This document shows positions 38,752 to 52,520 of a stretch of 64,000 nucleotides of DNA, piece after piece. Below the pieces are notes generated by a model. It was not told the DNA's origin and ran no database searches. It saw only the letters and a list, made by a program, of their open reading frames with translations. The position numbers and the translations under genes were made by a program. The stretch covers positions 110,993 to 174,992 of the forward strand of contig JAKPAG010000098.1 in assembly GCA_029779535.1 (NCBI GenBank). The letters are read 5' to 3'. The stretch comes from Pseudomonadota bacterium. Its GTDB lineage: Bacteria; Pseudomonadota; Alphaproteobacteria; Sphingomonadales; Sphingomonadaceae. Every line of letters starts with the position of its first letter. Position 1 is the first letter of the stretch.

Positions 38752-40431
38752 TCAGCCGAGGCGGTCCAGCGCCAGGGTGGTTCCTGACCGGTTGATCCGC
38801 CACTGGCTGAGCACGGACGTACCGGCTTGCGGTCGCAGCACCGTGTCCACCGCCACGAACGTCGCGCGGGCCGCATCGCGCCGCAATTCCAGCCGCACGA
38901 AGCCCTGGTGCAGGTTGTCGGTCCACAGCACTTCGGGGTTGTGCTCGGCCAGCGCCGCGTCGAGCCGGCGCGCGGTGGCCGGATCGAACCCGCTTTCCAC
39001 GAAATCGCCCGGCGAGGAGATCCCGGCGGTGCCCAGTTCGATCCCCATCGGCTGCCCGCTGGCATCGGCCAGGCGATTGGCCCAGAAGCTGTGGCTGTCG
39101 CCGGTCAGGAAGATCAGGTCGCTGACCCCGGCGCTGCGCGCCTGGGCATACAGCCGTTCGCGCGCCCATTCATAGCCGTCCCAGGTGTCGGTGTAGAACG
39201 GCAGGTTCCACTTGCCCTTCCAGGCCAGGTCCTGCGCGGCGGGCAGTGGTTTGGCCTGCTTGGCCGGATCGGGGATCAGCCCCAGCGCGACCACATCCGG
39301 CACGCGGGTGCGGGCGATCGGCATGGGATTGCCGATCAGCCGCCACGGCTGGCCCAGTTCGCGCGAACGCGCCCAGGCCTGGGCCAGGTCCGCTTCAAGC
39401 TCGGGGGCGAGCATGGTGCGGCCCGGCGCGCCGATCGCGTCGCGCTCCATCGCGGCGGCATCGGCGAAGCTGGCGATCGTCTTGCGGTAGGGTTCGTAAT
39501 CGATCTGGAGCGCCCGCGCGGTGTGGCGCGTTTCCAGCGTGGACAGGGTGGCCAGATCGCCGAACGCCCAGGTCCGCCAGAACTGCATCCGACTGCGCCC
39601 GGGCACCGGCTCGCGCACCGGCATCCATTCGAAATAGGCCTGGATCGAGGCGGCGCGGCGCGCGGCCCAATCACCTTCCTTGTCCGGCTGGTGGTTCTGC
39701 GCCCCGCCGGTCCACGGATTGTTGGCGCTTTCGTGATCGTCCCAGCAGGCCAGCAGGGGCTTGGCCGCGTGCATCGCCTGGGCGCCGGCGTCGGTCTTGT
39801 ACTGGGCATGGCGGGTCCGGTAATCTGCCAGCGAGACGATCTCGTGCGCGGGCTGGTGGACCCGGCCGAGCCGCCGGGAAATGTCGCCGCCCCAGCCATC
39901 GGCGCCATATTCGTAGATGTAGTCGCCGGTGTGCAGCACGAAATCGACCGCCGGATCGCGCGCGATTGCGCCGTAGGCCGTGAAGTAGCCGAAGGCATAG
40001 TTGGAGCACGAGGCGAGTGCGATGCCCAGCCGGTCAAGCGCGCCGACCGGCAAGGTGCGGGTCTGGCCCACCGGCGATACCGCGCCGCCCAGCCGGAAGC
40101 GATAGAAATAGCGCCCGCCCGGCGCCAGCCCTTCGGCCAGCGGCTTGACGGTGAAATCGCGGTCCGGGCCGGTGGCAAAGGTGCCGCTGCGCACGATCCG
40201 CGCGAACCGCGCGTCGCTCGCCACTTCCCAGGTCACCTCGACCGGAGCGGAGGCCGTTACCCGCGTCCACAGCACCACGCTGGTGGCATCGGGATCGCCG
40301 CTGGCCACGCCGTGGCGAAACACCGGATCAACCAGCGTTGCGCCGCGCGCAGGCAAGGCCGCGAGGGCAGCCGTGGCCGACAGTGCGGCCAGGGTGGTGC
40401 GGCGGGAAACGGGCAAATGGCTGGTCATCAT
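38752..40431 (-). CDS. phoD: alkaline phosphatase D family protein
   Basis: A 559-residue exported phosphatase. Twin-arginine signal SRRTTLAALSATAALAALPARG at the N-terminus. An N-terminal beta domain (VLWTRVTASAPVEVTWEVA) leads into the metallophosphatase core: LHTGDYIYEYG, CWDDHESANN, LTGDSHSFWANRL carry the iron/calcium ligands. It releases phosphate from diesters and phospholipids or nucleic acids outside the cytoplasmic membrane. ATG at 40431. It lies 116 bases downstream of the TonB receptor gene, with a hairpin in between, and is probably phosphate-controlled along with it. Confidence 0.92.
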   Translation of the reverse strand: MMTSHLPVSRRTTLAALSATAALAALPARGATLVDPVFRHGVASGDPDATSVVLWTRVTASAPVEVTWEVASDARFARIVRSGTFATGPDRDFTVKPLAEGLAPGGRYFYRFRLGGAVSPVGQTRTLPVGALDRLGIALASCSNYAFGYFTAYGAIARDPAVDFVLHTGDYIYEYGADGWGGDISRRLGRVHQPAHEIVSLADYRTRHAQYKTDAGAQAMHAAKPLLACWDDHESANNPWTGGAQNHQPDKEGDWAARRAASIQAYFEWMPVREPVPGRSRMQFWRTWAFGDLATLSTLETRHTARALQIDYEPYRKTIASFADAAAMERDAIGAPGRTMLAPELEADLAQAWARSRELGQPWRLIGNPMPIARTRVPDVVALGLIPDPAKQAKPLPAAQDLAWKGKWNLPFYTDTWDGYEWARERLYAQARSAGVSDLIFLTGDSHSFWANRLADASGQPMGIELGTAGISSPGDFVESGFDPATARRLDAALAEHNPEVLWTDNLHQGFVRLELRRDAARATFVAVDTVLRPQAGTSVLSQWRINRSGTTLALDRLG

Positions 40432-40547: not shown

Positions 40548-42812
40548 TCAGAAGCCCACCTTGAGCGTGGCGAAGAACTGCTGCGGCGCGGCCACCAGCA
40601 GGGTCTGGCGATCCCCGCTGTTGCCGGTGCCGCCCGAGTTGATCGTGCCCAGGTAGCGCTTGTCCAGCAGGTTCGTGGCGTTGAGCTGCACTTCGATCGT
40701 GTCGGTCAGGCGGTAGCCGATCGACGCGTCGACGATCGCCCGGCCCGGCACCGACTGGTCGTTGGTATAGGTGAAGTAGCGCTTCGACATGTAGTTGACG
40801 CCGATCCGGCCGAACAACGCCCCGCGATCGTAGCTCAGTTCGCCGCGCAGCATGTGCTTGGGCGCATCGACCACCGTCTTGCCCTTGATCGCAGCCAGCA
40901 GCGTGCCCGACAGGTTGTACACGTCGTTGCGATACGTCGCATCGGTGTAGCTGTAGGACGCGAACAGGCCGAAGCCGCCACCCAGTTTGAGATCGCCAAC
41001 CGCTTCGAACCCGATCGAGCGCACCGCGCCGACGTTCTGCAGCACCGAGGGGCTGCCGACGATGCTGGGGCCGCTGGCGGCCGACAGCAGGCGGTCGTGG
41101 AAGTTGACCAGGTAGGCGCCGATCACGCCGTTGAACACCGGGCTGTTGTAGCGCGCTCCCAGTTCATAGGTGTCCGAGGATTCCGGCTTCAGCGTGCCGA
41201 GGATCCCGTTGAACCCGGTCTGGTTGGTCGAGAACGGCCCGGTGGTGGTGGCCGAAGCGAACGCGCGGGTCGCCTGCGAGAAGCTGGCGAACATTTCCGT
41301 GTTGCCGCCCAGCGCCAGGTTCAGGCCCACGGTCGGCTGGAACCAGTCGGTCGCGTCGATCTTGCCCTGCGGGAAGCTGGACGAAACGACGGCGGTGGCC
41401 TTGTTCTTTACCTGGAAACCCTTCCAGCCCAGGTTGAGCTTGAGCTTGCCCAGGTCGATCCGGTCCTCGACGAAGTACTGCAGCGTCTCGGTGTCGAAAT
41501 CGAATTCCCACTGGGTGAAGAACGGGTTCGTCGGATAGCGGCGGAACGAGCGGCCCGGATTGGTCCGGCTGTCGAGGCCATAGAAGCGGCGCGCCTGGTT
41601 GAACTGGTTGGTTTCATACCAGCCACCAACCGACAGGGTGTTGATGCCGCGCTTCCAGTTGATCCGGCCGAACAGCCCGCCGCGATCGATCTTGTATTCG
41701 GTGGTGCGGATCGAGATCGGCACGCCGTTGGGGCTGGGGACATAGGGCGTGGCCCACAGGCCCATGCCGCGGTTGTGGTGGTAATAGGCGCGCAGCGCCA
41801 TATCCAGCCCTTCGCCCAGCGGTGCCTTCAGCCCGATCGCGGCAACGGTGTCCTTGCGCAGGCCCGAAGCGTCGTAATAGGCATCGTCAACCGTCTTGAT
41901 GTTGCCCGGATAGACCGTGCCGGCCGCCGCATTCGAAATCGGTGCGCCGGTTTCGCCGCGGTTGTTGCCGATGTCGGCAATGCGGATCGCCAGCGCGTAA
42001 TCGTCGGCGATGTTGTCCCAGCCATAGCCCAGCCGGCCCAGCATCTCGAGCGACATGTCCTGGTAGTCCTGCTCGCGCCGGTCGGAATAGCTGAACCAGC
42101 CGTCCAGCACCGCTTCGCCCAGCGGCAGCACCGCCTTGGCGTTGATCATGTGCTGGTCCTGGGTGCCGTGCCCGCGATACTTGTCGGTCGCGCCGTAGCC
42201 ATAGGACACGAAGCCGCGCAGGCCATCCGCGCTGCCGGCATTCAGGCGCACGAAGCCGCGCATCGTGTTGTCGCTGCCATAGGTGCCGCTGGCCTGGCCG
42301 CCCAGCCGGTCGAGCGGATCGATCGAGAAGGTTTCGACTGTGCCGCCCAGATTGTTGGTCGATTGCGTGCCCAGCGCGCCGGCGCCCTGGGTAACGCGGA
42401 CCGAGCCGATGTTTTCCGGGCTGATCACGCGGCTGATGTGCAGGCCGTTGTGGTTGCCATAGGTCATGTCGCCCAGCGGAATGCCGTCGAAATTGAAGCC
42501 CAGCTGGTTCTGGTTGAAGCTGCGGATGGTGACGCGGGTCGACCATTCGTAGTTGCCGAAGGCATCGGCCGACTGGACGTTGACGCTGGGCAGCTTCTCG
42601 ATCGCGCGGATCGGGCTGGTGCCGGGCAGCATCACCGCGATGTCGCGTTGGCCCACTTCCTGGACCTGCTTGGTTTCGCCGCGGCCCAGCACGACGATTT
42701 CGGCTTCGCCCGAAGCCTCGGCGGCATCGGCCCCGGCAGCGGGTTCGGCGGCCAGCGCCGCGTGCGGCAGCAGGGCGGAAGAAGCAAGCAGGACGGCAAT
42801 CAAGTTACGCAT
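40548..42812 (-). CDS. TonB-dependent receptor, probably phosphate-regulated
   Basis: A 754-residue receptor: signal peptide LIAVLLASSALLPHAALAAEP, then AEIVVLGRGETKQVQEV, plug domain (IRSFNQNQLGFNFDGIPLGD, VTQGAGALGTQSTNNLGGTVETFS), barrel ending in ATLKVGF. The plug region GTQSTNNLGG is not the classic YGRN form and is seen in a subset of receptors. Its promoter faces that of ppk, with mirror-placed CTGTAACAT sites, and it precedes phoD, so an organophosphate-type substrate is likely. This is inference. Confidence 0.92.
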   Translation of the reverse strand: MRNLIAVLLASSALLPHAALAAEPAAGADAAEASGEAEIVVLGRGETKQVQEVGQRDIAVMLPGTSPIRAIEKLPSVNVQSADAFGNYEWSTRVTIRSFNQNQLGFNFDGIPLGDMTYGNHNGLHISRVISPENIGSVRVTQGAGALGTQSTNNLGGTVETFSIDPLDRLGGQASGTYGSDNTMRGFVRLNAGSADGLRGFVSYGYGATDKYRGHGTQDQHMINAKAVLPLGEAVLDGWFSYSDRREQDYQDMSLEMLGRLGYGWDNIADDYALAIRIADIGNNRGETGAPISNAAAGTVYPGNIKTVDDAYYDASGLRKDTVAAIGLKAPLGEGLDMALRAYYHHNRGMGLWATPYVPSPNGVPISIRTTEYKIDRGGLFGRINWKRGINTLSVGGWYETNQFNQARRFYGLDSRTNPGRSFRRYPTNPFFTQWEFDFDTETLQYFVEDRIDLGKLKLNLGWKGFQVKNKATAVVSSSFPQGKIDATDWFQPTVGLNLALGGNTEMFASFSQATRAFASATTTGPFSTNQTGFNGILGTLKPESSDTYELGARYNSPVFNGVIGAYLVNFHDRLLSAASGPSIVGSPSVLQNVGAVRSIGFEAVGDLKLGGGFGLFASYSYTDATYRNDVYNLSGTLLAAIKGKTVVDAPKHMLRGELSYDRGALFGRIGVNYMSKRYFTYTNDQSVPGRAIVDASIGYRLTDTIEVQLNATNLLDKRYLGTINSGGTGNSGDRQTLLVAAPQQFFATLKVGF

Positions 42813-42856
42813 TGGACCCCCATTCAGGTTTGGTTCGGGGGGCGGTTACGGGGTGC

Positions 42857-42865
42857 ATGTTACAG
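42857..42865 (-). promoter_or_regulatory. Pho-box-like half-site toward the TonB receptor
   Basis: CTGTAACAT on the minus strand, 45 bases upstream of the receptor start. The same 9-mer stands 43 bases before ppk on the other strand. A weaker half (ATCGCAC) lies 11 bases upstream. Confidence 0.5.
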
Positions 42866-42950
42866 CCCGGTGCGATTCGCCTGATGCTCTGTCGACACCG
42901 GCGCGACACGGCATTGACAGCAGGCACCGAGCCGCGATCTGGCGCGCAGC

Positions 42951-42979
42951 GTCACATGGCTGTAACATTGACCGTCAAC
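42951..42979 (+). promoter_or_regulatory. Pho-box-like direct repeat before ppk
   Basis: GTCACAT-GGCT-GTAACAT: two 7-mers with a 4-base spacer, the 11-base periodicity of PhoB sites, followed by a third GTCAAC 12 bases on. It ends 31 bases before the ppk start. Confidence 0.55.
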
Positions 42980-43010: not shown

Positions 43011-45188
43011 ATGGGCGAGACAACGGTATATGTCGGTAATCATTCGCCGGCGCAGCTTGCCTCGCGGTACTTCAACCGCGAGCTGAGCTGGCTGGCCTTC
43101 AACCAGCGCGTGCTGGCCGAGGCCGACAATCCCCACTATCCCCTGCTTGAACGGCTTCGGTTCCTGTCGATCTCGGGCAGCAACCTTGATGAATTCCTGA
43201 TGGTCCGGTTCGCCGGGCTGGTCGGGCAGGCCAAGCGCCGGATCGAGCAGACCTCGATCGATGGGCTGACCCCGTCCCAGCAACTGGCCGCGATCAACGA
43301 AGCGGTGCTCAGGCTTGACCAGGCTCAGCAAACGGCCTGGCAGGACCTGCGCCGCCTGCTGGCCGAAGCCGGCATCCGCGTGATTGCCGGCGCGCAGCTG
43401 GACAACGACCTGGATGAGGCCCAGCGCGAATGGCTGCGCGATTACGTGGCCGAACACATCCTGCCGATCATCACGCCGCAGGCGATCGATCCGGCCCACC
43501 CGTTTCCCTTCATTGCCAACCAGGGCATCGGTGTGATGTTCGCGCTGCGCCGCGATGCGGACCTGACCGCGATCATGGAAATGGTCCTGATCCCACAGGC
43601 GCTGCCGCGCTTCGTGCGCATTCCCGGCAATGGCGCCTGCTATGTCAGCATCGAGGACCTGCTGCACTTTGCCGCCGATCTGCTGTTTCCCGGTTTCACC
43701 ATCCAGGGGCACGGCGTGTTCCGCGTGCTGCGCGACAGCGACCTCGAGATCGAGGAGGATGCCGAGGACCTGGTCCGCTACTTCCGCACCGCAATCCAGC
43801 GCCGGCGGCGCGGCTCGGTGGTGGTGCTGCAGATGCAGGGGAGGTTCGATCCCGCCGTGGAAGAGCTGCTGCGCCGCCAGCTGGCGCTGGACCGCGCCCT
43901 GGTGATGCACACCTCCGGCCTGATCGGGTTCGGCGGCCTGGCCGCGATCGTCGAGGAGGACCGGCCCGACCTGAAGTTCCCGCCATACAGCCCGCGCTAT
44001 CCGGAACGCATCCTGGAACACGATGGGGACTGCTTTTCCGCGATCCGCGAAAAGGACATCATCATCCACCACCCCTACGAAAGCTTCGAGGTGGTGGTCG
44101 ATTTCCTGCGCCAGGCGGCCGAGGATCCCGACGTCGTCTCGATCAAGCAGACGCTATACCGCGCCGGCAAGCAATCGGCCGTGGTCGCGGCGCTGATCGC
44201 CGCGGCCGAAGCGGGCAAGTCGGTCACGGCAGTGGTCGAACTCAAGGCCCGGTTCGACGAGGAACAGAACCTGCTCTGGGCCAGCCAGCTCGAACGCGCC
44301 GGGGTCCAGGTGATCTATGGCTTCGTTGACTGGAAGACCCATGCCAAGGTGTCGATGGTGGTCCGCCGCGAAGGCGACGGCTATCGCACCTACTGCCATT
44401 TCGGCACCGGCAACTATCATCCGCTGACCGCGCGGATCTATACCGATCTCAGCTTCTTTACCGCCGATCCGCGCGCCGGGCGCGATGCAGCCAAGCTGTT
44501 CAACTTCATCACCGGCTATGTCGAACCCAAGCAGACCGAATTGCTGTCGATCTCGCCGCTCACGCTGCGCGCCCGGCTGTATGGCTGCATCGAACAGGAA
44601 CGATTGAACGCGCAGGCGTGCAAGCCCGCGGCGATCTGGGCCAAGCTTAATTCGCTGACCGATCCCGACCTGATCGAACAGCTTTATGCCGCCAGCGCGG
44701 CGGGGGTGGAAATCAACCTGGTGGTGCGGGGGATCTGCTGCCTCAAGCCCGGGGTCGCGGGGATGTCGGAACACATCACGGTCAAGTCGAGCATCGGCCG
44801 GTTCCTTGAACACAGCCGGATCTGGGCTTTTGCCAACGGCGCCGTTCTGCCCAACCGCAAGGCGCGGGTGTTCATTTCCTCGGCCGATGGCATGTCGCGC
44901 AATTTCGACCGGCGGGTCGAAGTGCTGGTCCCGATCGAAAATGCCACGGTGCATGACCAGGTGCTTGACCAGGTGATGATGGCCAACCTGCTCGACAGCG
45001 AGCAGAGCTGGGCGCTTGAGGCCGATGGCAGCTACCACCGCATTGCCAGCGCCGAACAGCCGTTCAACCTGCACCGCTACTTCATGATCAACCCGTCGCT
45101 ATCCGGGCGCGGCGCAGCGCTGGGCGATGGGCAGCAGGTGCCCAAGCTGGCGCTGCGGCGCAGTCACGCTGACGGCCGGGGGGCATAG
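43011..45188 (+). CDS. ppk: polyphosphate kinase 1
   Basis: A 725-residue PPK1 that reversibly makes inorganic polyphosphate from ATP. N-domain RYFNRELSWLAFNQRVL; head domain; then CHFGTGNYHPLTARIYTDLSFF with the catalytic His that is autophosphorylated, and a second His/Arg block, KARVFISSADGMSRNFDRRVEVLVPI. Length is normal for the family. ATG at 43011 follows GGCGGGGACA. The Pho-box-like repeat upstream agrees with its known control by phosphate starvation in many bacteria. Confidence 0.96.
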   Translation: MGETTVYVGNHSPAQLASRYFNRELSWLAFNQRVLAEADNPHYPLLERLRFLSISGSNLDEFLMVRFAGLVGQAKRRIEQTSIDGLTPSQQLAAINEAVLRLDQAQQTAWQDLRRLLAEAGIRVIAGAQLDNDLDEAQREWLRDYVAEHILPIITPQAIDPAHPFPFIANQGIGVMFALRRDADLTAIMEMVLIPQALPRFVRIPGNGACYVSIEDLLHFAADLLFPGFTIQGHGVFRVLRDSDLEIEEDAEDLVRYFRTAIQRRRRGSVVVLQMQGRFDPAVEELLRRQLALDRALVMHTSGLIGFGGLAAIVEEDRPDLKFPPYSPRYPERILEHDGDCFSAIREKDIIIHHPYESFEVVVDFLRQAAEDPDVVSIKQTLYRAGKQSAVVAALIAAAEAGKSVTAVVELKARFDEEQNLLWASQLERAGVQVIYGFVDWKTHAKVSMVVRREGDGYRTYCHFGTGNYHPLTARIYTDLSFFTADPRAGRDAAKLFNFITGYVEPKQTELLSISPLTLRARLYGCIEQERLNAQACKPAAIWAKLNSLTDPDLIEQLYAASAAGVEINLVVRGICCLKPGVAGMSEHITVKSSIGRFLEHSRIWAFANGAVLPNRKARVFISSADGMSRNFDRRVEVLVPIENATVHDQVLDQVMMANLLDSEQSWALEADGSYHRIASAEQPFNLHRYFMINPSLSGRGAALGDGQQVPKLALRRSHADGRGA

Positions 45189-49256: not shown

Positions 49257-52256
49257 TCAAAATTCCTTCGACAGTTCGAAGTAGATGAACCGCCCGGTCG
49301 GATCGGCCAGCGCACCGTTGAAGCCATAGTTCGACGAGGTCAGCGGCGGCGCCTTGTCGAACAGGTTACGCGCACCGACCTTGAAGCGGGTGCCGGCCAG
49401 CGCTCCGGCGTCCTTGGGCACGCGGTACTGCACGTAGCCGCCCACCGTGGTGAAGCTCGGCACTTCATAGAACGACCCGTTGACCAGCGCCGTGCCGGTA
49501 TCGAAGACCGAACCGACATAGTTGACCTGCACGCCCGCGCTGAACCCGCCGGCGCGCCACGTCATGTTACCGTTCAGGCGCCACTGCGGGTTGCCGTTCT
49601 GCCGGACCTGGTCCCCGGCCTGGGTGATGTTGATCCCGGTGCCCAGCTTGCCCGCGGCATTGGCCGCGATCAGCGTGGCCTGGAGGTCCGAGGCGGATTG
49701 TTCCCACTTGATCAGCTTGGATGCGACCAGATCGAAGCTGAAGCGGCCCAGCGGCGTCTTGCCGGTTTCGAGGCTCAGCGCAAAGTCGATCCCGCGCAGC
49801 TTGCGCGGGCCAAGATTGAAATAGTCATCCTTGACGTAGGAAATGTCGCCGACCACCTGCGTGCCGACCGGGGCGAGACGAACCACGTTGGCGTTGGTCC
49901 GGCCGCTCAGCCGTTCAAGATAGTCGAACAGGATCTGGTTCTGCGCCCCTTGCAGGCCGATCACGCCCATTTCATTGAGCGCCCAGTAATCGACCGTCAG
50001 AGTGACGTTGCGGTGCGGCTGGAACACCACCCCGGCTGAAATCGTTTCGGCATCTTCGGGCTTCAGGTTCTGGTTGCCCGAACGCACTTCCAGCGTGCTC
50101 ACCCCGGTGCAGGTGGTTGCGTTGATCCGGCACTGCGCCCAGTCGGTCCGGGTGTTGGCCACCTGCGTCCCGGCGCTGTAGAACTGCGCCAGGTTGGGCG
50201 CACGGTAGCTTTGCGACCAGGACGAGCGGAACTTCAGCGCGTCGAATACCGACCAGACGCCGGCCACCTTGGGCTTCAGCACGTTGCCGAAATCCGAATA
50301 ATGCTCGTCGCGCGCCGCCAGTTGCAGGTCGAGCGACTGGATCAGCGGCACGTTCATGTCATCGGAAATCACCGGCACGGCCAGTTCGATGAAGGCCGCC
50401 GCCACGGTACGGTGGGCCTTCACGTCGGGCGCCGGGCTGGCCCCCATGATGTCGGTGCCATAAGTGATGCCGGTGACGATGTCCTTGTAGGTGATCGTCC
50501 CGTCAAGCCGCGCATCGCGGTCATCCTGGTAGGTTTCGCGGCGCAGTTCCACGCCGCTGGCAAAGCCGACCCCGCCGCCCGGCAGCTGCAGCAGCGAGGG
50601 GTTGGAAATGCGCGCGTCCCAGGTCGCGAGCGAGGTCTTGCCGATGCGGTGCACCCCGACCAGGAAGGAATTGATCGTTGCCGCCGAATTGGCCGTGGCA
50701 TCGCCCAGCGAATAGCTGGTCTGGGTGCCGCCGTTGAACGGGTTGTAGGCATCGGGTGTCGACCGCGCCAGCGCCTGCTGGAACAGCGTGTTGCTGATCG
50801 CGTTCTTGGTGAAGTCGTCGGTCTTCGCCCAGGAATAGGTCGCGGCGCTTTCCCACTTGAAGTTGCCAAAGCTGCCGCGCAGGCCCAGCAAGCCGCGCAC
50901 CATGTTGTCCGTCACCTGGAACACGCGCGGCCCGGTATCGACCGGGCGGTAAGTGGTAATGCGCAGCGGCAGGCCCGTGGTCGGCACGCCGGTCAGGCCG
51001 GCCAGCCGGTTGGGATTGGCCACCCCGTCTATGGTGGTCGGCCCGAACGGGTTCCAGTAATTGTTCGCCGGGATCGAGATCACGGCGCTGGAAATCGGCG
51101 CCGATTGTTCGCGCTGCCCTTCCAGCTTGGCATGGTAATAGCCGGCTTCGCCGAACAGCTCGATCCCGCCCAGATCCTGCTTGAAGGTGCCGAACAGGTT
51201 GATTCGGTCCAGCCCGCCGCGGATCGTGCGATCCGGGTTCTCGTCATAGCGCAGCACGCGGTCGGTCGCGCCGGTGATCGTGCCGGACCGCAGACACAGG
51301 TTGCCGTTGATCACGGTGCTGGAACAGCCTGCCGCCGTGTTGGACGTGGGTTCGATGTGGAACACGCCCGAACTGGTCAGCGTCGCCGTGCCCTGGCGCA
51401 CGGTCGTCACCGGGATGGTGGTAAAGCTGCCCCACGGCGACGAGGTCGAGCGGTTGTCGAACCCTGTGTCGCCTTCCCACGGCGTACCGACCAGTGCAGG
51501 CATGTGGTTTTCGCTGGCCGAGAACGGGCGTTCGCTGGCGAATAGCGGGGTGCGGTGGGTGTAGCTGCCGAACAGCATGAAATGCCCGCCCGACTTGGTC
51601 TTGACCCCGGCCTTGCCGGCAATCGTCGTTTCGCTCGTGCCATCGGCAAAGCCATAGCGCCCGTCGAACTTGAGCCCGGTGTAGCGATCGTCGAGCACGA
51701 CGTTGACCACGCCCGCCACCGCATCCGCGCCATAGATCGCTGCCGCGCCGTCGCGCAGCACTTCCATCCGCCGGATCGCGCCGACCGGGATGGAGTTGGT
51801 GTTGGCGGTCTGCACCGGCACGAAATTCTCGGTCTGGGTGCCGGGGGTCAGGATCATCCGGCGGCCGTTGACCAGGACCAGCGTGTTGCCGGTGCCGACG
51901 CTGCGCAGGTTGATCGACGCATTGTCGCCGCGCGCGTCGTTGAGGTTGCCGGTCGTCCGCGATTCCTGGAACTGGACGTCACCGGCCTGCGGGATCGAGC
52001 GAAACAGATCGTCGCCCGAAACGCTGCCGTTGGCGGCAATGCGATCTTCGCCAACCACGGTAACCGGCAGCGCGCCGGCGATCTTGGCGCTTTCGATCCG
52101 GCTGCCGACGACCGTGATTTCCCGGTTCTGCCCGGCATCTTCGGCGCCCGGCGGATATGACCCGGCGGTCTGGGCAAGGGCCACTTGCGGGACTGCGATG
52201 AAGGTGGATGCGCCTGCAAGCAGCACTGCACGCATGGCTGTGGCGGACATTTTCAT
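49257..52256 (-). CDS. large TonB-dependent receptor
   Basis: A 999-residue receptor: signal peptide AVLLAGASTFIAVPQVALAQ, TonB-box-like EITVVGSRIE, plug with LRSVGTGNTLVLVNGRRMI and MEVLRDGAAAIYGADAVAGVVNVVLDD (the long-form plug of the peptide/oligomer-type receptors), barrel ending in FELSKEF. Its length and the VLVNGRR/YGADAVAGV signature place it in the group of large receptors common in Caulobacter and sphingomonads, often for peptides or saccharides. The neighbours (ggt, DadA-like, D-aminoacylase) suggest a peptide or modified amino-acid substrate. Confidence 0.92.
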   Translation of the reverse strand: MKMSATAMRAVLLAGASTFIAVPQVALAQTAGSYPPGAEDAGQNREITVVGSRIESAKIAGALPVTVVGEDRIAANGSVSGDDLFRSIPQAGDVQFQESRTTGNLNDARGDNASINLRSVGTGNTLVLVNGRRMILTPGTQTENFVPVQTANTNSIPVGAIRRMEVLRDGAAAIYGADAVAGVVNVVLDDRYTGLKFDGRYGFADGTSETTIAGKAGVKTKSGGHFMLFGSYTHRTPLFASERPFSASENHMPALVGTPWEGDTGFDNRSTSSPWGSFTTIPVTTVRQGTATLTSSGVFHIEPTSNTAAGCSSTVINGNLCLRSGTITGATDRVLRYDENPDRTIRGGLDRINLFGTFKQDLGGIELFGEAGYYHAKLEGQREQSAPISSAVISIPANNYWNPFGPTTIDGVANPNRLAGLTGVPTTGLPLRITTYRPVDTGPRVFQVTDNMVRGLLGLRGSFGNFKWESAATYSWAKTDDFTKNAISNTLFQQALARSTPDAYNPFNGGTQTSYSLGDATANSAATINSFLVGVHRIGKTSLATWDARISNPSLLQLPGGGVGFASGVELRRETYQDDRDARLDGTITYKDIVTGITYGTDIMGASPAPDVKAHRTVAAAFIELAVPVISDDMNVPLIQSLDLQLAARDEHYSDFGNVLKPKVAGVWSVFDALKFRSSWSQSYRAPNLAQFYSAGTQVANTRTDWAQCRINATTCTGVSTLEVRSGNQNLKPEDAETISAGVVFQPHRNVTLTVDYWALNEMGVIGLQGAQNQILFDYLERLSGRTNANVVRLAPVGTQVVGDISYVKDDYFNLGPRKLRGIDFALSLETGKTPLGRFSFDLVASKLIKWEQSASDLQATLIAANAAGKLGTGINITQAGDQVRQNGNPQWRLNGNMTWRAGGFSAGVQVNYVGSVFDTGTALVNGSFYEVPSFTTVGGYVQYRVPKDAGALAGTRFKVGARNLFDKAPPLTSSNYGFNGALADPTGRFIYFELSKEF

Positions 52257-52340
52257 TCGCTATTCCCCCCTGATTCACGACCGGTTGGTTCGCGAGTGAG
52301 ACTATTTTGCAGCAAATGTGTCGCGGCGATAGTCACTCAC

Positions 52341-52356
52341 GTTACAAATTTGTGAC
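52341..52356. promoter_or_regulatory. 16-bp near-palindrome in a divergent promoter
   Basis: GTTACAAATTTGTGAC has all but one base pair complementary (T-G). It lies between the TonB receptor (start 52256) and the D-aminoacylase (start 52521), preceded by ACTCAC. A likely operator; its protein is unknown. The rest of the 264-base spacer shows only GAGTGAGACTAT...ATAGTCACTCAC, a looser inverted pair. Confidence 0.4.
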
Positions 52357-52520
52357 GCAAGCATAGCGTTGGGTTATGGACTGTGTCGCGAATGCGGCGA
52401 TTTCAGGTGATGTCCATCGTGCGTCGCGGCGGCGGGACGTCGCAATCCGCCATCCGGCGATTGCCCCGAGCGGCGCATGGATGCGATAGGTTCCCGAACT
52501 GAAGGCCGGCAGGGGGAACG

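Follow-up and report, generated by a model that had tools for sequence, protein, structure and literature searches.

Background

The 64-kb window analysed here (64,000 nucleotides, meaning the whole stretch of DNA) comes from a bacterium whose nearest relatives are Novosphingobium. Within it, the genes for a TonB-dependent receptor and for polyphosphate kinase 1 (ppk1) diverge from an intergenic region of 198 bp. A preliminary description interpreted this region as carrying mirror-image Pho boxes for the two genes, and the question is whether the phosphate regulator PhoB could control both sides, and through which sites. A Pho box is made up of a pair of 11-bp direct-repeat units, and more than one box can serve a promoter, as at E. 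coli ugp (PMC4415409). Our reading, to which we assign a probability of about 0.83 on the basis of sequence comparison, is that two predicted PhoB operators, independent of each other, make this a divergent control region of the Pho regulon; they would activate receptor-PhoD and ppk1, respectively.

Genes at the locus

The genes flanking the intergenic region were identified as follows.

38752-40431, minus strand: PhoD-like phosphatase (Pfam PhoD, 311 bits); the open reading frame extends to 40518
40548-42812, minus strand: TonB-dependent receptor (Pfam plug and barrel domains), start ATG at 42812
43011-45188, plus strand: polyphosphate kinase 1, ppk1 (NCBIfam equivalogs above cut-off; Pfam), start ATG at 43011

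The likely start of the PhoD-like phosphatase is the ATG at 40431. The protein carries a twin-arginine-like signal (SRRTTLAAL) and is related in sequence to the structurally solved PhoD alkaline phosphatase; its gene is probably co-transcribed with that of the receptor. A PDB search with the receptor returned, over the barrel, only siderophore- or metallophore-type relatives, so the substrate is not assignable by homology. Judging from the phosphatases and phosphodiesterases that neighbour the receptor in many relatives, it is probably a phosphate ester. PhoB is encoded in the source genome (C61:141460-142134, 331 bits against a cut-off of 296), together with the pst genes (pstSCA) and several further PhoB-like regulators.

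The neighbourhood was compared in 74 readable loci, source locus included, having an open reading frame directly after the receptor. This gene was a phosphodiesterase, PhoD, PhoD-like or GDPD in 44 of the 74, a count in which one member per cluster was checked in Pfam and the denominator includes some spurious reading frames. The classes were type I phosphodiesterase/nucleotide pyrophosphatase (27/74), PhoD (7/74), glycerophosphodiester phosphodiesterase (5/74) and a shorter PhoD-like phosphatase (5/74).

Some individual genomes depart from the arrangement found here. One of them (G022; L142, L033; G022:C115:35700-41718) carries on one strand the receptor, a type I phosphodiesterase, a Pho box, ppk and a gene assigned by eye as ppx-like. 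This order is the tandem counterpart of the divergent layout, which means that the linkage of receptor and ppk exists in more than one arrangement. In the near-complete genome G024 the receptor-PhoD pair is kept but a ppk1 candidate is absent, and ppk1 likewise went unmatched in several more near-complete genomes of the genus. Genome G074 (contigs C2 and C6) has 17 PstS-like matches, mainly in two clusters; most others in the genus have one.

Direct repeats in the intergenic region

The preliminary description started from a 9-mer, CTGTAACAT, said to stand on opposite strands before the two divergent starts, and this is indeed the case. The 9-mer has two copies only in the window, at 42857-42865 (minus strand, 45 bases from the receptor ATG) and at 42960-42968 (plus strand, 43 bases from the ppk ATG); 0.08 copies are expected per shuffled window, and two copies were seen in 0 of 100 shuffles. 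The 7-4-7 direct repeat described on the ppk side (GTCACAT-GGCT-GTAACAT, 42951-42968) is likewise genuine. Two separate arrays were found between the genes.

42855-42920, minus strand: six-unit array of 11-bp direct repeats, 66 bp (three tandem Pho boxes), facing the receptor; putative PhoB operator
42949-42970, plus strand: two-unit Pho box facing ppk, with units GCGTCACATGG CTGTAACATTG

The units of the six-unit array are, in order, CTGTCAATGCC GTGTCGCGCCG GTGTCGACAGA GCATCAGGCGA ATCGCACCGGG CTGTAACATGC. Two of them, with the cores GCATCAG and ATCGCAC, are weak on their own. Both arrays have the Pho-box layout of seven conserved and four less conserved bases at a period of 11, and each faces its own gene, as in pst promoters, an orientation that is kept at orthologous sites.

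The idea of a single box in mirror image does not hold. The putative operator on the receptor side is the six-unit array, of which the shared 9-mer is the last, promoter-proximal unit. Relatives typically have CTGTAACGC or GTGTAACGC as the proximal unit on the ppk side and CTGCAACAG or TTGCAACAG on the receptor side; as the identity of the 9-mers is not kept, their exact mirror is incidental. One shared or mirrored operator is thereby ruled out, the arrays being 28 bp apart, each facing its own gene, and the 9-mer not conserved. An inverted-repeat reading of GTCACATGGCTGTAAC was also considered. This sequence alone cannot decide between inverted and direct repeats, because GTNAC is self-complementary, and direct repeats are the better reading of the orthologous ppk sites (CTGTCAC...CTGTAAC).

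Comparison with pstS promoters and genome-wide searches

The pstS promoters of 30 related genomes bear 11-bp direct repeats, for example TTGTCATAAAACCGTCAC, and so does the source genome's own pstS (TGTCATCAAACTGTCAC). A full 22-bp pstS matrix including the spacers gave the ppk site only the tenth rank in the window. As this matrix is swayed by A-rich spacers, we used instead a unit matrix of 7 bases that ignores the spacers, built from 25 distinct pstS-promoter sites with the locus itself excluded from training. The unit matrix detects both arrays, whose units resemble the organism's own pst promoter.

Significance was evaluated on 5000 dinucleotide shuffles of the intergenic region. The ppk-side box scored 13.5, a value reached on either strand in 34 of the shuffles, and the six-unit array scored 11.1, which was reached in none of them (0/5000). 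Among periods 9 to 13, the six-unit score is positive at 11 only, with strongly negative scores at 9, 10, 12 and 13; likewise, 11 is the only period in this range that fits at least three units on the receptor side (two on the ppk side). The receptor array is the best six-unit place in the window, all others scoring -10 or less.

Consensus patterns gave results that depended on their stringency. The strict pattern YGTMAY-N5-YGTMAY had 16 matches genome-wide versus 6 in a reversed-pattern control, and pstS, ppk and a DUF47-Pit operon are among the 16. With one mismatch allowed, the loose pattern CNGTMAC-N4-CNGTMAC showed no enrichment genome-wide (31 matches versus 79 in the reversed-pattern control), and within the window CTGTMAC-N4-CTGTMAC with 3 mismatches had an uninformative 9 matches versus 6.7 expected. 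In many relatives (A1; L206, L215, L220-L222, L224), GCGCAATGG at ppk and GTCGCATTGG at pstS lie at an equal distance after the last Pho unit, and are perhaps a common promoter element.

Further Pho-box-like sites were noticed along the way. The pair GCGTCACAAATTTGTAAC at 52337-52358 (minus strand), 81-102 bases before another TonB receptor (49257-52256, minus strand), is the top full-matrix match in the window, yet it is near-palindromic; two close orthologs keep its AAATTTGTAA core and not the GTCAC unit. Elsewhere in the source genome, a divergent promoter (G000:C56:110450-110515; L240-L242) has Pho-box-like repeats on both strands. On one side, three in-phase units CGTCACCGGTGCGTCATCATACCGTCAT precede a response regulator that is PhoB-like but whose receiver domain is poor, and on the other GTGTCACATTCCTGTCAC precedes a small exported protein; the next TonB receptor has its own CGGTCACACTCCTGTCAC.

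Conservation in relatives

Conservation of the receptor array was evaluated on 80 orthologous receptor loci, mostly from Novosphingobium and Sphingomonas and some from Brevundimonas. Period 11 scored best among the five periods in 70 of the 80, and 55 of 80 reached p<0.01 against random windows of the same loci, p values that are conservative because the null windows include true arrays.

In nine relatives ppk is divergent from the receptor, as it is here. The ppk box is clear in seven of these (NTGTCAC-N4-(C/G)TGTAAC, p<0.005), a clear box not being found in L092 and L099, and in an alignment of the divergent relatives many invariant columns coincide with the unit cores. Where ppk is not divergent, a two-unit site precedes the gene at p<0.05 in 22 of 27 Novosphingobium genomes, and at p<0.01 in 11 of 27; in an order-wide sample the corresponding numbers are 7/28 and 5/28, all these counts being of genomes that are kin by descent and not independent, and the 28 possibly including the source genome. 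Most other sphingomonad genera sampled are without a clear ppk box.

The preliminary description had further proposed that the ppk-side repeat is a Pho box and that receptor-PhoD and ppk are part of the response to phosphate starvation. Both proposals are backed by the pstS-derived matrix, the conservation, the gene context and the presence of PhoB in the genome, joint induction at low phosphate being a prediction. Its observation is confirmed and its interpretation is partly supported, being correct in the core and wrong on one mirrored box.

Alternative explanations

Two unrelated copies of a 9-mer might fall into a short intergenic region by chance. A single unit as good as these arises in 2124 of 5000 shuffles and the 9-mer itself is not conserved, but the arrays, unlike single units, are significant and kept in phase, and we regard chance as very improbable. 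The sites could also belong to another regulator of the OmpR/PhoB family that recognises direct repeats with a spacing near 11 bp, for instance a regulator of envelope stress of the ChvI type or the PhoB-like protein on contig C56. Direct repeats of the 11-bp type are used by other OmpR-family regulators too, GTNAC-N6-GTNAC would likewise resemble ChvI-type sites, and the genome has its several other PhoB-like regulators. Against this, the unit matrix derives from pstS promoters and the neighbouring genes are phosphatases, phosphodiesterases and ppk, which leaves another regulator quite unlikely.

A narrower possibility is that PhoB works through the receptor array alone and that ppk1 follows cytoplasmic phosphate as in Caulobacter, where ppk1 is starvation-induced but PhoB-independent (PMC11208175). 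The two divergent relatives in which the box is missing, and the 21 of 28 other sphingomonad genomes with no ppk box even at p<0.05, point the same way. However, in 7/9 divergent relatives the ppk box keeps its place and orientation, and it is found again before ppk in other members of the genus; we consider it unlikely that the receptor side alone has a working operator. Two independent PhoB operators are accordingly the reading we retain.

Predicted regulation and biological meaning

On this reading, ppk1 would be activated, rather than repressed, by phosphorylated PhoB sitting head to tail on the two 11-bp units at 42949-42970. The receptor-PhoD operon would be activated independently, through PhoB bound to the six-unit array at 42855-42920. 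Starved of phosphate, the cell would produce an outer-membrane importer that takes up phosphate esters, the PhoD phosphatase to free phosphate from the imported esters, and the kinase, which stores the recovered phosphate as polyphosphate. Given the separate rows of PhoB-like sites at receptor and ppk, phosphate scavenging and storage are probably switched on together in this Novosphingobium-like bacterium.

The wiring is mostly ordinary, the row of six sites being long and well conserved. It is like the PhoB Pho boxes of E. coli ugp (PMC4415409) in its 11-bp units with seven conserved and four variable bases and in its multi-box promoter. It differs from known Pho boxes in that six units stand before a TonB receptor and two before a divergent ppk1, the unit sequences being degenerate toward CTGTAAC or CTGCAAC. 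For the receptor such control is to be expected, since PhoB of Caulobacter crescentus controls TonB receptors, phosphatases, and a nucleotide pyrophosphatase and phosphodiesterase (PMC11208175). TonB-type importer genes are also grouped with phosphatases and phosphodiesterases in the phosphate utilisation (Pus) loci of Flavobacterium, which are induced by phosphate depletion (PMC8115612); these belong to a different phylum and are largely SusCD-type complexes, whereas here a lone siderophore-like receptor is found. Induction of ppk by starvation is common in bacteria, for instance in Streptomyces lividans at low phosphate (PMC4415409), with a different lineage and regulator. In the literature searched, which excludes most subscription journals, we found no paper on ppk Pho boxes in sphingomonads.

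Unlike in Caulobacter, ppk1 has a conserved predicted Pho box here, and direct PhoB control in Novosphingobium would be a lineage difference within the Alphaproteobacteria. For the difference in unit number between the receptor and ppk sides, our guess is cooperative binding with a different threshold. We propose tentatively, at somewhat less than even odds, that ppk1 has come to be controlled directly by PhoB in Novosphingobium, in contrast to Caulobacter and most other sampled sphingomonad genera. In several species ppk1 would be physically paired with a presumably cooperative six-unit array driving an organic-phosphate receptor, and scavenging and storage would be set by one regulator with two thresholds.

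Through operator conservation and phosphatase neighbours, sphingomonad TonB receptors that have no assigned substrate would be tied to phosphorus acquisition. The locus would also offer a case for what a six-unit PhoB array does beyond a two-unit one, and a concrete case for how the regulation of polyphosphate synthesis has been rewired among the Alphaproteobacteria.
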